A stretch of 64,000 nucleotides of DNA from Woeseiaceae bacterium (GTDB taxonomy: Bacteria > Pseudomonadota > Gammaproteobacteria > Steroidobacterales > Woeseiaceae): assembly GCA_028822065.1 (NCBI GenBank), contig JAPKEL010000004.1:1-64000 (forward strand). The letters run 5' to 3'. Position 1 is the first letter of the stretch; the number at the start of each line of letters is the position of its first letter. The position numbers were made by a program, and so were the translations under genes. Shown here in pieces: positions 8,104 to 52,925 of this stretch. Below the pieces are notes generated by a model. That model was not told the DNA's origin and did not search any database. It worked only from the letters and a program-made list of their open reading frames with translations.

Positions 8104-9621
8104 TTGAAACACATACTTGAGAGTCTCAATTTAAATTCAATTAATGCTGGAAGCTGGTCCGGTGAAGTTTCGTTGCAATCTGAAGATGGGAGTTTAATCG
8201 AATCAATAAATCCATCAACCAATGAAGTCATTGCCTGTGTAAAAAATACCACTGCAGATGAATATGAGAAAATCATATCATCTGCACAAGAAGCTTTTCT
8301 TGAATGGCGGACAATACCTGCGCCAGTAAGAGGAGATGCCATAAGAAGAGTTGGTACGGCTTTAAGAGAAAACAAAGATGCGCTTGGCAGTTTAGTAAGC
8401 TTAGAAATGGGGAAAATCAAAGCTGAAGGTGATGGTGAAGTTCAAGAAATGATTGATATGGCTGATCTTGCCGTCGGTCAATCGAGAATGCTTTATGGCA
8501 TGACTACTCAATCAGAACGGCCAATGCATCGCATGTATGAGCAATGGCATCCATTAGGCCTTGTCGGCATCATATCAGCATTTAATTTCCCTGTAGCGGT
8601 TTGGTCCTGGAATGCATTTATTGCCACAATATGTGGCAATATTAGTGTCTGGAAGCCATCCCCAAAAGCACCATTATGTGGAATTGCGGTACAAAAAATA
8701 TGCAATCAAGCATTAAAAGATCAAGGCCTACCTAATATATTTCATTTAATAAATGATGAGTCGAATATACTTTCTCAAAAACTAATCGATGATCGCCGTA
8801 TTGACCTATTGTCATTTACTGGTTCCACCCAAATAGGTAAAAATGTTGGCCAAAAAGTTGCCTCAAGAATGGGTAAATACCTCCTTGAACTTGGTGGTAA
8901 TAATGCCATTATTGTCGATGAATCGGCTAATTTCGATATCACAGTTCCGGGCATTGTATTTGGCTCTGTTGGTACTGCTGGTCAAAGATGCACAACTACA
9001 AGGAGAGTACTTGTTCATGAGTCTCGAATGGATGAACTTAAAGAAAGACTTGTTCATGCCTACCAACAAATTCCAATTGGCGACCCTCTTGATACCAATA
9101 CACTGATGGGACCATTGATTGATGAAAAATCCTTACAAAATGTAGAAACTGCGGTAGAAAAAATAAAAGAGGCTGGTGGTGAGATATTATGTGGCGGTAA
9201 CAGAGTCGGTGACAAAGGCAATTTTATAGAGCCGATAATTGCTGTTGCTGAAAATGAATGGGATATTGTCCAGGACGAAACATTTGGACCATTATTGTAC
9301 TTAATTCCATGCACTTCCTTAGATGATGCAATTGCCAAACAAAATAATGTTAGACAAGGGCTTTCCTCAGCAATTTTTACCAATAATCTCCAAAATGCTG
9401 AAAAATTCCTCTCTAGTATCGGTTCTGATTGCGGTATTGCAAATGTCAATATTGGGACGTCAGGCGCTGAAATTGGGGGTGCTTTTGGTGGTGAGAAAGA
9501 GACTGGTGGAGGTCGTGAGGCTGGCTCAGATGCTTGGAAAGCTTATATGCGCCGACAAACAAATACGATAAACTGGGGTAGTGAGTTACCTTTGGCTCAA
9601 GGTGTTAATTTTGATGTTTAA
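8104..9621 (+). CDS. Aldehyde dehydrogenase, ALDH7 (aminoadipate-semialdehyde) type
   Basis: An NAD(P)-dependent aldehyde dehydrogenase of 505 residues. The catalytic cysteine sits in [16 protein letters not shown], and the general-base Glu lies in [10 protein letters not shown]. The coenzyme-binding region includes [16 protein letters not shown] and [13 protein letters not shown]. These phrases match the ALDH7/AmaB group, which oxidises alpha-aminoadipate semialdehyde (piperideine-6-carboxylate) in lysine catabolism. The group also acts on other aldehydes, so the substrate is an inference. Translation appears to start at a TTG preceded by AGGGG. It ends one base before the convergent mazG-like stop. 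No other lysine catabolism gene adjoins it. Confidence 0.9.
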
Positions 9622-10032
9622 TTAAAAATTTGGAGCTTTATTCTTTTGCTGTTGCCATAATAATTCAAACTCAGCACTGGACAAATCTGTTAGTTTTATA
9701 CCATCAGCCAAAGTCATTTTTTCCATTCCATTAAATCGAGAGATAAATTTTTCACAAGCCATGGATAGAGCTTGCTCTGGATCTACCCCTATACGCCTAG
9801 AAAAATTAACAAGGGTGAATAAAACATCACCCAGCTCCTCTTCCATGGCTTCAGGTGAAATTAACATAGCTTCTTCTAATTCATTTAATTCTTCGTAAAT
9901 TTTTTTTAACACCCCTTCATTATCGTTCCAATCAAAACCCACACTTGAAGCTCTTTTGCTAAGAGTTTTTGCCAAACTAAAAGCTGGCATAGCTCGTGGA
10001 AGATTGTTTAATATTGATTTTTCATTTTTCAT
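9622..10032 (-). CDS. Half-length MazG-type nucleotide pyrophosphohydrolase
   Basis: A 136-residue protein that aligns with only the C-terminal half of E. coli-type MazG (about 263 residues). It starts with LPRAMPAFSLAKTLSKRASSVGFDW, and the all-alpha NTP pyrophosphatase metal site is intact: YEELNELEEA and then EEELGDVLFTLVNFSRR (EExxE and ExxD). MazG hydrolyses (d)NTPs and has been linked to ppGpp control. The single domain should still dimerise to form the fold, since this half is the active one in E. coli. It overlaps the upstream nudL by 4 bases, so two nucleotide-cleaning enzymes are translationally coupled. The frame is clean, so a functional short form is more likely than a pseudogene. 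Confidence 0.82.
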   Translation of the reverse strand: MKNEKSILNNLPRAMPAFSLAKTLSKRASSVGFDWNDNEGVLKKIYEELNELEEAMLISPEAMEEELGDVLFTLVNFSRRIGVDPEQALSMACEKFISRFNGMEKMTLADGIKLTDLSSAEFELLWQQQKNKAPNF

Positions 10033-48856: not shown

Positions 48857-49570
48857 ATGAATTTCAAAATTACCAAATTCAAGGTCATCCTTTTATTATT
48901 TACTCTAATCATAAACGGGTGCTCATACCCTTTATTAAATAGTGAAATGATTGAAAAGAAATTTGGATCCTATGGTCTCGATGTAATTGAAAGCAACAAT
49001 GAAGACAGAATTTCATTTCTTTTCAGCAATGACGATTATTATATCGCTCTCAATAAAATAAATGCAGTAAAGAAAAGCTCTGGTTACAAAAAGAAATACC
49101 ACACATTGGCATTAGTGAGCTTTATGGATTCGGTTAAAATTAGCGAAGTACATAAAAAGATAATTGAGGGAAGCTCTATTGGTGCTACATTCAAAGATTA
49201 TGGCTGGAGTATTACCAAAGACAGTCTACTCGTCCTCGAGTTGTCTAAAGATATTCATCCAGTTATCCAAAAATGGTTGAAAAGCAATGCATACCAAAAC
49301 ATAGCGATTCATGTTTATACACTTACGGTTAAAAATAAGACTCAAACAATTAGATACGCAGAGATAATCGAGATACACCATCCAGATTATTTATCGCTTA
49401 CAAAGTTAAAAGATATATACGATATTAATTCGTCGAGAGAGAAGGATGCATTCGTGGTTAAAATAAAAAATATAATCATTGATAAATTATCAAATAATAA
49501 AACTAGTCAAATTATTCTTGGCTTATTAGACCATCAAGGTGAACATGATGTTAATCCCGTTACAGATTAG
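48857..49570 (+). CDS. Lipoprotein of unknown function
   Basis: A 237-residue protein with a lysine-rich start, a hydrophobic segment and a lipobox ending at NGCS (Cys22), so a lipoprotein. The mature domain contains FGSYGLDVIESNNEDRISFL, SIGATFKDYGWSITKDSL and IEIHHPDYLSLTKL, mixing beta and alpha segments. No family was recognised. It is transcribed alone between queC (divergent) and a small convergent reading frame whose stop it overlaps. Confidence 0.75.
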   Translation: MNFKITKFKVILLLFTLIINGCSYPLLNSEMIEKKFGSYGLDVIESNNEDRISFLFSNDDYYIALNKINAVKKSSGYKKKYHTLALVSFMDSVKISEVHKKIIEGSSIGATFKDYGWSITKDSLLVLELSKDIHPVIQKWLKSNAYQNIAIHVYTLTVKNKTQTIRYAEIIEIHHPDYLSLTKLKDIYDINSSREKDAFVVKIKNIIIDKLSNNKTSQIILGLLDHQGEHDVNPVTD

Positions 49571-49770: not shown

Positions 49771-51237
49771 ATGACCGATCAATCAAAACATGAACAGACA
49801 TTAGATCCTGAAAATTGGGATGAATTTCAAGACTTAGCTCATAAAGTAGTTGATGATTTGGTTGGTTACTTAAAAACTGTGGGTGACAGACCGGTCTGGA
49901 CGCCCCTACCAGAAGAAGCAAAAGAATTATTCGCGGAGCCACTCCCTTCAAAAGGATCCAAGGAATCAGAGGTTTATGAATCAGTAAAAAATCATATCCT
50001 ACCTTACCCAACTAATAACATTCACCCAAGATTCTGGAGCTGGGTTGGCGGTACCGGTACGCCAAGTCAATTAATTGCTGATATGGTTATCTCAGCGATG
50101 AACTCAGGTAGTCTAGGTTTGGATGAAACCGCATCAACATACGTTGAACTTCAACTTCTTTCTTGGTTAAAGACCCTCCTTAGTTACCCACAAGATGCTA
50201 ATGGTTTACTTGTTAGTGGGGGGTCTATGGCAAATTTAGTGGGTTTAGCGGTAGCAAGAACACATGCCGCAGGTTACGATATCAGAGACGAGGGAATTAA
50301 CCTTAATGACAATGCAAGATTGATGTTCTATACCTCAGTAGAGACTCATTCCTGCATCAGAAAAGCAATTGAACTCTTAGGGCTTGGATCGAAATCATTA
50401 AAATTGATACCGATCAATGATGACTATACTGTTAACCTAGACCTTCTCCAGAATGCCATAGATAAAGACCGAAAAAATGGTCGTATCCCAGCCTGTATTA
50501 TTGCTAATGTAGGGACTGTAAATACCGGCGCTATAGACCCTTTAATCAAATTGTCCGAAATAGCCAAGAAAGAGAATATCTGGCTCCATGCGGACGGGGC
50601 ATTTGGTGCGATTGCTAAATTTGCACAAAAATCTCATCATCTTGTTGACGGTCTAGAATTAGCTGATTCTATTGCCTTTGACCTCCATAAATGGATGTAT
50701 ATTCAATATGACTGTGGCTGCGTCCTAATTCGTGGCAACCACCCACATAAAGAGACATTTTCAGTAATACCGCCTTATATAAAGAACTTTGAGCGCGGCT
50801 TAGCATCAGGGCCGATTAATTTTTCTGAATATGGAGTGCAGCTCTCACGCTCTTTCAAAGCGCTTCGCGCCTGGATGGCATTAAAAATTGAAGGTTCTGA
50901 TAAATATAGTGCTCAGATTGAACAAAATATTGACCAGGCAAAATATCTTACTCAATTAGTTGAAGCCCATAATGATTTAGAGTTATTAGCGCCAACTTCA
51001 TTGAATATAGTTAATTTTAGATACACTAATCCATCAGTTAAGGATGAGCAATTAAATGACTTGAATACTGAGATACTGATGAGATTGCATGAAAGTGGAA
51101 ATTCAGCCCCCTCTTCAGCTTTATTAAATGGAAATTTCTCTCTTAGAGTGGCAATTTGCAACCATCGAAGTCAGCGCTCTGATTTTGATGAGCTAGTGAG
51201 AGATGTGACTATGATAGGCAATAATCTTTTAAATTAA
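49771..51237 (+). CDS. PLP-dependent group II decarboxylase (aromatic amino acid type)
   Basis: A 488-residue fold-type I decarboxylase resembling aromatic-L-amino-acid and tyrosine decarboxylases. The PLP lysine lies in SIAFDLHKWMYIQYDCG, the conserved Asp in IWLHADGAFGAIA, and the substrate loop region HPRFWSWVGGTGTPSQLIAD is present. VSGGSMANLVGLAVARTHAA is also family-like. It would release CO2 from an amino acid to give an amine; the substrate cannot be read from the sequence. It stands alone, with the convergent two-component remnant 30 bases downstream. Confidence 0.88.
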   Translation: MTDQSKHEQTLDPENWDEFQDLAHKVVDDLVGYLKTVGDRPVWTPLPEEAKELFAEPLPSKGSKESEVYESVKNHILPYPTNNIHPRFWSWVGGTGTPSQLIADMVISAMNSGSLGLDETASTYVELQLLSWLKTLLSYPQDANGLLVSGGSMANLVGLAVARTHAAGYDIRDEGINLNDNARLMFYTSVETHSCIRKAIELLGLGSKSLKLIPINDDYTVNLDLLQNAIDKDRKNGRIPACIIANVGTVNTGAIDPLIKLSEIAKKENIWLHADGAFGAIAKFAQKSHHLVDGLELADSIAFDLHKWMYIQYDCGCVLIRGNHPHKETFSVIPPYIKNFERGLASGPINFSEYGVQLSRSFKALRAWMALKIEGSDKYSAQIEQNIDQAKYLTQLVEAHNDLELLAPTSLNIVNFRYTNPSVKDEQLNDLNTEILMRLHESGNSAPSSALLNGNFSLRVAICNHRSQRSDFDELVRDVTMIGNNLLN

Positions 51238-51267: not shown

Positions 51268-51528
51268 TTAAAATTTTGGTTCAAATGGTAATGTAACGAC
51301 CAAACAGGCGCCTTTCTTATAAGCAGTATCAAGATCTAAGTTACCGCCATGCGCCCTAGCAACCAGTTTTGCAATATAAAGGCCTAAGTCGGGATCAGAT
51401 AACTCGAATCTTTTTAAGCCTTTTTCGGCATCGCCAATGCAATCCAGCTTCATGCCGTATCGCGACAAATAATTTTTTAGAAGTTCTGAATGCCTAAAAT
51501 CATCATCAATTAATAAAACTTTTATCAT
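51268..51528 (-). pseudogene. Receiver/histidine-kinase fusion remnant
   Basis: An 86-residue frame made of two unrelated ends. Residues 1-48 are the first half of a response-regulator receiver (MIKVLLIDDDFRHSELLKNY, with the acidic DDD pocket), stopping at DPDL just before the expected phospho-Asp. Residues from about 48 are the last part of a histidine kinase ATPase: GLYIAKLVARAHGGNLDLD (G2 box and beyond) and GACLVVTLPFEP. An internal deletion running from a response-regulator gene into a downstream kinase gene would produce exactly this. Neither part should be active: no phosphorylation site, no HisKA, no N or G1 box. It is in frame, so a short protein could still be made. Confidence 0.8.
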
Positions 51529-51704
51529 CTTGTAATTATACTTTCTTTAGAAAATTCAACAAAATCAATATGATACTTGTTACGAATTGAAACAAAATTG
51601 CTTACCAAAGAAAAGCAGATTGTTTGTAATGATTATCCTTTAACTTTTACCTATACTAACATCTAAATTATCAAACAGCATAACCTTATAATTAGGAGCT
51701 ATAA

Positions 51705-52925
51705 ATGTATTTACTTCGTCATCTTACACTCATTCTTCTCCCTTCATTCTTAATGGCTTGCATGCCTTCAGCGGAATCTATCACGTCGTCCGAGTTAGCA
51801 AAAAACTCTATTATAATTGATGGTCATATTGATGTTCCATATCGTGTTCTCCGTGAATGGGAAGACGTTACGATGGCTACAGAAGGTGGCGATTACGATT
51901 ATCCCAGAGCTATTCAAGGTGGTTTAAATGCGCCTTTTATGTCGATATACACACCAGCCTCATTAGCGTCTGAGGGTAAATCAAAAGAACGTGCTGAAGA
52001 ATTAATTATCTTGGTGGAAAAAATTGTAGCAACTGCACCAGATAAATATGCAATTGCTACTTCACCATCACAAATTAGAGAGCAATTCGATCAAGGTTTG
52101 ATCTCTCTACCACTAGGCATGGAAAATGGATCACCGATCGAAGGTCAAATTGAAAATATTGAGTATTTTTTCGAAAAAGGAATTCGCTATATTACCCTAG
52201 CTCATTCTTTATCAAATCTAATCTCTGACTCATCTTATGACTCAAATAAAGTCCATGGTGGTCTAAGTGCTTTTGGTGAAGATGTTGTTAAAGAAATGAA
52301 CCGTCTTGGCATGATAATCGATATCAGTCATGTCTCTGATGGAGCATTTTGGGATGTCATGGCTATAACAAGCGTTCCAGTCATTGCTTCGCATTCTTCG
52401 GCTCGTCACTTCACTCCGGGATTCGAAAGAAATATGAATGATGAAATGATCATTCGTTTGGCTGAAAATGGCGGGGTTATTATGATTAATTATGGCTCCG
52501 CATTCCTTACAGAAGAAGCCAATCAATATAACTCAAAAAGAACTGTAGCTTGGGAAAAGTTATTGTCATCTGACGATGACACGCCATTAGATCTGTATGG
52601 AAGTGAAAACGGTAATGATCGTGATGCCTTCAACGATGAATATGCCAAATTAAATCCTTATCCATTTGCCACATTAGAGCAGACTCTAGATCATTTTGAT
52701 CACGTGGTTAAATTAACCGGTAGTGTTGATCATGTTGGGATTGGCTCTGATTATGACGGTGTAGGAAATACCCTACCGATTGGTCTTAAGGATGTTTCTA
52801 GCTACCCTAATCTTATTCAGGGACTAATGGATCGAGATTACAGCAATGAAGATATTAAAAAAATTCTTGGGGAAAATTTATTACGCGCATGGAGTGAAAT
52901 CGAACTTGGCGCCACATCGAACTAA
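51705..52925 (+). CDS. Membrane dipeptidase, peptidase M19 lipoprotein
   Basis: A 406-residue renal-dipeptidase-type metalloenzyme with a lipobox (LMAC, Cys19), so anchored outside the cytoplasm. Metal ligands are visible in IIDGHIDVPYRV (HxD), GMENGSPIEG (bridging Glu), SHVSDGAFWD and PVIASHSSARH, with VGIGSDYDGVG near the C-terminus. The family hydrolyses dipeptides, including ones with a D-residue at the C-terminal side. AGGAG lies 6 bases before the ATG. A D-aminoacylase-like gene and an M20 peptidase follow on the same strand. Confidence 0.92.
   Translation: MYLLRHLTLILLPSFLMACMPSAESITSSELAKNSIIIDGHIDVPYRVLREWEDVTMATEGGDYDYPRAIQGGLNAPFMSIYTPASLASEGKSKERAEELIILVEKIVATAPDKYAIATSPSQIREQFDQGLISLPLGMENGSPIEGQIENIEYFFEKGIRYITLAHSLSNLISDSSYDSNKVHGGLSAFGEDVVKEMNRLGMIIDISHVSDGAFWDVMAITSVPVIASHSSARHFTPGFERNMNDEMIIRLAENGGVIMINYGSAFLTEEANQYNSKRTVAWEKLLSSDDDTPLDLYGSENGNDRDAFNDEYAKLNPYPFATLEQTLDHFDHVVKLTGSVDHVGIGSDYDGVGNTLPIGLKDVSSYPNLIQGLMDRDYSNEDIKKILGENLLRAWSEIELGATSN

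Follow-up and report, generated by a model that had tools for sequence, protein, structure and literature searches.

We analysed a window of 64,000 nucleotides from the draft genome (93.65% complete) of a marine Woeseiaceae bacterium with a small genome. On the minus strand, between the genes for a PLP-dependent decarboxylase (49771..51237, plus strand; PF00282) and an M19 dipeptidase (51705..52925, plus strand; PF01244), the list of open reading frames with their translations places a frame of 86 codons, which runs from an ATG to a TAA (51528..51268). Translation and a search in relatives identify this frame (51268..51528) as an in-frame fusion of a regulator start and a kinase end. Codons 1–48 (51385..51528, minus strand) belong to an OmpR-type response regulator with the acidic pocket DDD at residues 8–10 and are 88–92% identical to the start of the intact 231-residue regulator in three congeneric genomes, G002, G004 and G008 (44, 42 and 43 of 48 residues identical). 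The last 38 codons and the stop (51268..51384, minus strand) encode the end of the HATPase_c domain of a sensor kinase and are 63–74% identical to the kinase ends of relatives. Frame residues 4–48 match positions 1–45 of Response_reg (PF00072; E 1e-3), and residues 48–83 match the last 36 positions (75–110) of HATPase_c (PF02518; E 4e-4). As both scores are under the curated cut-offs, the Pfam matches alone are a lead only; a search of 60 related genomes located the equivalent of residues 49–86 about 2 kb from the regulator start in the three congeners.

Two-sided alignment with G002 and G004 places the junction at a TTA codon that fits both parents (51385..51387, minus strand). The regulator match runs to DPDL48 (...GATCCCGACTTA) and the kinase match from GLYIAK onward (...TTAGGCCTTTATATTGC). 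An earlier note on this DNA had described a frame that opens as a receiver with its acidic pocket, stops at DPDL just before the phospho-accepting aspartate and continues as the G2 box and the end of a kinase ATPase domain. The receiver part of this description holds, with the phospho-acceptor of the relatives' regulator, D52, downstream of the junction, and so does the kinase end; the G2 box, GTGLGLYIA in relatives, is incomplete, as the fusion retains only its second half, (L)GLYIA.

What is left amounts to the first fifth of the regulator gene and the last twelfth of its partner kinase gene. Exiting the receiver at residue 48, before D52, the frame does not encode a functional response regulator, and the phospho-acceptor Asp, the conserved Thr and Lys and the DNA-binding domain are all absent. 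Nor does it encode a functional sensor kinase, which needs the HisKA histidine and the N, G1 and G2 boxes: positions 75–110 of HATPase_c are present, while the sensor, the phospho-accepting His and most of the ATP site are missing. Deprived of phospho-acceptor, output, sensor, His and most of the ATP site, the fusion is unable to work as either parent. The structural model of the fusion reached a mean pLDDT of 50.4 (13-row alignment) compared to 83.5 for the intact receiver (6 rows), a comparison limited by the artificial alignment of the fusion, in which each row represents one half; the model is of low confidence and gives the peptide no confident fold.

The intact gene pair in related genomes

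Relatives were compared across the Woeseiaceae with one genome per species, G002, G004 and G008 being congeneric. G002 and G004 carry an intact regulator-kinase pair on the opposite strand between the PLP decarboxylase and the M19 dipeptidase genes, the very arrangement for which the earlier note had suggested comparing this locus in relatives. Both flanks are syntenic (87–89% identity to G002 and G004 for the decarboxylase, about 90% for the dipeptidase), and the window, G002 and G004 share the gene order queE, queC, lipoprotein-like, PLP decarboxylase, M19 dipeptidase, amidohydrolase-like and peptidase-like, in which names without a Pfam call are a reading of the sequence. The lipoprotein-like gene (48857..49570, plus strand; 237 aa) is 56–57% conserved, compared to about 77–90% for its neighbours. 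G008 bears the intact pair beside the decarboxylase gene on a short contig. Both parents of the fusion are hence found separate and intact at the same locus, as expected if the frame is a gene-loss scar.

The intact regulator of G002 and G004 (231 aa) is composed of a receiver and a Trans_reg_C domain, and the kinase (458 aa in both, about 450–460 aa among relatives) of HAMP, HisKA and HATPase_c. With this architecture and adjacent genes, the ancestral pair resembles an OmpR/PhoB-type regulator with a CpxA/RstB/EnvZ-like kinase, of which the fusion retains only the two outer ends. Unlike named systems, however, the pair stays well under the cut-off of every NCBIfam equivalog among those listed, with RpaB/OmpR and CpxA/RstB as the closest.

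From the regulator ATG to the kinase stop, 2,079 bp are present in G002 and in G004 compared to 261 bp in the window. Exactly 1,818 bp, or 606 codons and thus a multiple of three, are missing at a single clean junction across which the reading frame is kept. This comparison supports what the earlier note had proposed, namely that the frame was made by one in-frame deletion starting in the regulator gene and ending in the kinase gene downstream of it. Microhomology at the junction comprises about 3–4 nt, an apparent value only, since the bases that this lineage deleted are no longer there to compare.

A match at E <= 1e-6 was found in 64 of the 107 family genomes, with the two halves fused in the window alone. 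In other genera (e.g. G011, G012, G013, G021, G024, G027 and G029) the halves are separate and 1.8–2 kb apart, from which we conclude that the split state is ancestral. Relatives sharing the same 86-residue protein as a conserved family under purifying selection had been named in the earlier note as an observation that would speak against its reading; a sequence search in the 106 other family genomes returned neither the fusion nor an orthologue of its product, and hence no conserved family of micro-proteins. At the place of the pair, G003 (C18; L059:3851-5045) has two other genes between the decarboxylase and a distant M19 peptidase, the second of which looks like a HupE/UreJ-type membrane protein, so that the loss in the window is not the only one in the genus.

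No second intact copy of the pair exists elsewhere in the window assembly. A search of the genome for complete receivers found just one, in an NtrX-like protein with a sigma-54 domain that adjoins an NtrY-like kinase; apart from the fusion, no receiver or HisKA kinase besides these two was found. Congener genomes contain between one and four receivers each, indicating that two-component systems come and go in the genus.

Promoter and conserved box upstream of the fusion

Upstream comparison revealed a TATAAT -10 element 6 nt before the ATG (51535..51540, minus strand), the position of which matches within a base in G002, G004 and G008 and suggests a leaderless transcript. Farther upstream lies a conserved box, GTTTCAATTCGTAAC (51579..51593, minus strand), shared by nine genomes from five genera and without another exact match in the window genome. 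The corresponding pattern GTWTCNNTTYGTAAC precedes the ATG of the regulator by about 52–67 nt in the window genome, G002, G004, G008, G011, G012, G013, G027 and G029. A count over 14 genomes yielded 14 matches in total compared to 8 for the reversed control pattern; with so few matches, the position of the box is telling rather than its count. In G029 (L022), the pattern precedes both the regulator gene (8259-8273) and a CMAS methyltransferase operon (9832-9846), in G012 the box separates the regulator gene from a divergent methyltransferase gene, and in G013 (L078:1501-1515) the pattern adjoins a DUF4397-like gene. Judging from these sequences, the candidate box is probably the lost regulator's own operator, and the GTWTCNNTTYGTAAC sites may constitute a candidate regulon of the unnamed two-component system. 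Promoter and box both survive upstream of the fusion; a scan for promoters and terminators returned nothing beyond chance.

Loss of a methyltransferase/lipocalin operon

In the congeners G002 (C34:88942-94433) and G004 (C24:31544-37034), genes for a CMAS methyltransferase, a DUF2878 protein, a lipocalin, a flavin amine oxidoreductase, a DUF1365 protein and a further CMAS form a six-gene operon. Its first gene is preceded in both genomes by the box variant GTATGATGTTGTAAC, which has two mismatches to the pattern. The methyltransferase orthologue (E <= 1e-90) and the intact pair are both present or both absent in 95 of the 107 family genomes (58 with both, 37 with neither, 5 with the pair only and 7 with the methyltransferase only; Fisher p 2.6e-16, uncorrected for shared ancestry or genome incompleteness).

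CMAS has no match at all in the window genome. There, 454 bp separate the operon flanks (C72:78713 and 79167, L086) compared to 5.7 kb in congeners, and this site is located on the scar's own contig, 27 kb from the scar and outside the window. Between the flanks, two separate remnants were found, one of about 53 bp from the last methyltransferase (CMAS) gene (about C72:78780-78832) and the other, at about C72:78886-79103, covering the C-terminus of the lipocalin in frame up to the native stop codon. At least two deletions are needed at this site. Box, linkage and co-occurrence together suggest that the lost pair probably controlled this membrane-lipid operon.

Likened by gene set, the lost operon resembles ufaM-ufaD-ufaO, the genes for furan fatty acids, with CMAS-type methyltransferases, a protein of the flavin amine-oxidase fold and DUF1365 (PMC7380195). 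In Rhodobacter, the product of ufaM-ufaD-ufaO rises upon removal of chrR (PMC7380195), whereas the regulator of the lost operon would be a two-component system. In the congener G001, in which the pair was not found, a CMAS orthologue (C11:24770-25801) contains an internal TAA, perhaps reflecting decay of the same operon in another lineage.

Age and selection

The sequence of the remnant is almost undecayed, which implies either a recent deletion or selection on the frame. Since synonymous sites are saturated between the species compared, free codon-model fits on the remnant are uninformative, and branch lengths were therefore taken from the neighbouring decarboxylase gene. On this basis, omega on the window branch is about 0.02–0.07 and no higher than on other branches; for both parts together it is about 0.04 with an upper limit of about 0.1, which rises to about 0.24–0.27 when a length of 1.0 rather than 2.65 neutral substitutions per codon is assumed for the window branch. 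Modelled as a mixture of selected and unselected evolution, the unselected share of the window branch is at most about 2–4% (branch 2.65) to 20% (branch 1.0). In neutral simulation, 20% of frames were still open after 0.5 substitution per codon, with about 26 residues changed. The undecayed frame would fit a recent event, and selection on the fusion would fit as well.

Origin of the fusion

We consider it very probable that the frame is a gene-loss scar from a single deletion; the 86-residue leftover is most likely non-functional. In the ancestor, the gene of an OmpR-type regulator stood beside that of its sensor kinase on one strand and at the same spot. A deletion of 1,818 bp, presumably recent and by short-homology (illegitimate) recombination, then removed everything between codon 48 of the regulator and the final 38 codons of the kinase, joining the two genes in frame. 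The peptide is perhaps still transcribed from the intact promoter, yet would be degraded or inert. If the pair was the switch of the furan-fatty-acid-like operon, as box, linkage and co-occurrence point to, target and switch may have been discarded together, and the locus is best read as part of a membrane-lipid regulon that was recently lost piece by piece along with the two-component system controlling it.

A chimera from single-cell whole-genome amplification or a misassembly, with an intact pair in the real genome, could also produce such a junction, and two congeners bear single-cell-style names (AM-375-N10 and AG-313-J15). Amplification chimeras often join at 2–21 matching bases, but more than 85% of them are inverted (PMC1855051), while the junction in the window is direct. 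Collapse of the assembly at this point is unlikely, as no long repeat of the kind needed is present at the junction and the apparent homology of about 3–4 nt is too short for a k-mer collapse. Moreover, the intact pair is nowhere else in the assembly, and another locus of this contig, probably connected with the scar, has likewise disappeared piecemeal, which one artefact hardly explains. An artefact is thus very unlikely.

The earlier note had left open whether the frame is a scar or a micro-protein that interferes with another two-component system. But, could such a newborn protein, expressed from the promoter of its dead parents, act on the NtrYX-like pair, the sole other system found, or on another protein, or be kept for some other reason? 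Promoter and upstream box are intact, the frame is open, protein change on the window branch is no faster than elsewhere, and fused proteins made by deletion have been detected in another bacterium (PMC7671302). Against this stand its absence from the 106 other family genomes and its make-up of half a receiver plus a piece of an ATPase domain, with no phospho-acceptor, kinase dimerisation helices or DNA-binding domain. We regard the micro-protein as highly unlikely and found no positive evidence for it; the scar is favoured because the probable target operon is lost 27 kb away, as expected for a discarded regulon, and because the model of the fusion has low confidence, whereas the intact receiver folds. 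If true, removal of the central part of a signalling pair would have created a new gene. Least likely of all is an older fusion kept as a new gene, with a peptide selected for a purpose outside two-component signalling: deletion-born fusions are described across bacteria (PMC12803068) and the frame is preserved, but an unselected frame born in the last 2–20% of the branch accounts for the data just as well and no relative among the 106 family genomes shares it.

A gene-loss scar belongs to a known kind, the deletion-born fusion or pseudogene. Examples come from across the bacteria (Kaul et al. 2026 preprint, PMC12803068) and, as gene-fusion chimeras, from M. tuberculosis, in which fused proteins were detected (Gallant et al. 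2020, PMC7671302). As in these cases, a deletion brought together portions of two genes, the ancestral split state is seen in relatives, and the frame may stay while the functional motifs of the parents are lost. In contrast to them, the parents in the window were neighbouring genes for cognate partners in a single signalling system, and the fusion occurs in one genome. Searches of the main texts of both papers returned no two-component example, and literature searches on two-component fusion scars and on streamlined Woeseiaceae gave nothing relevant. While the scar by itself is ordinary gene loss, its context adds value: promoter and probable operator survive, and regulator and probable target operon are lost in one genome, offering a snapshot of a regulon dismantled during genome reduction, all parts of which related genomes still hold. 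The comparison further suggests a function for the unnamed two-component system, the control of an operon of the cyclopropane/furan-fatty-acid type. A second, independent truncated regulator was observed in G078, another family member with a 1.5-Mb genome, in which a similar receiver start breaks off after about 30 residues and gives way to an unrelated tail (C81; L079:4129-4302, minus strand).
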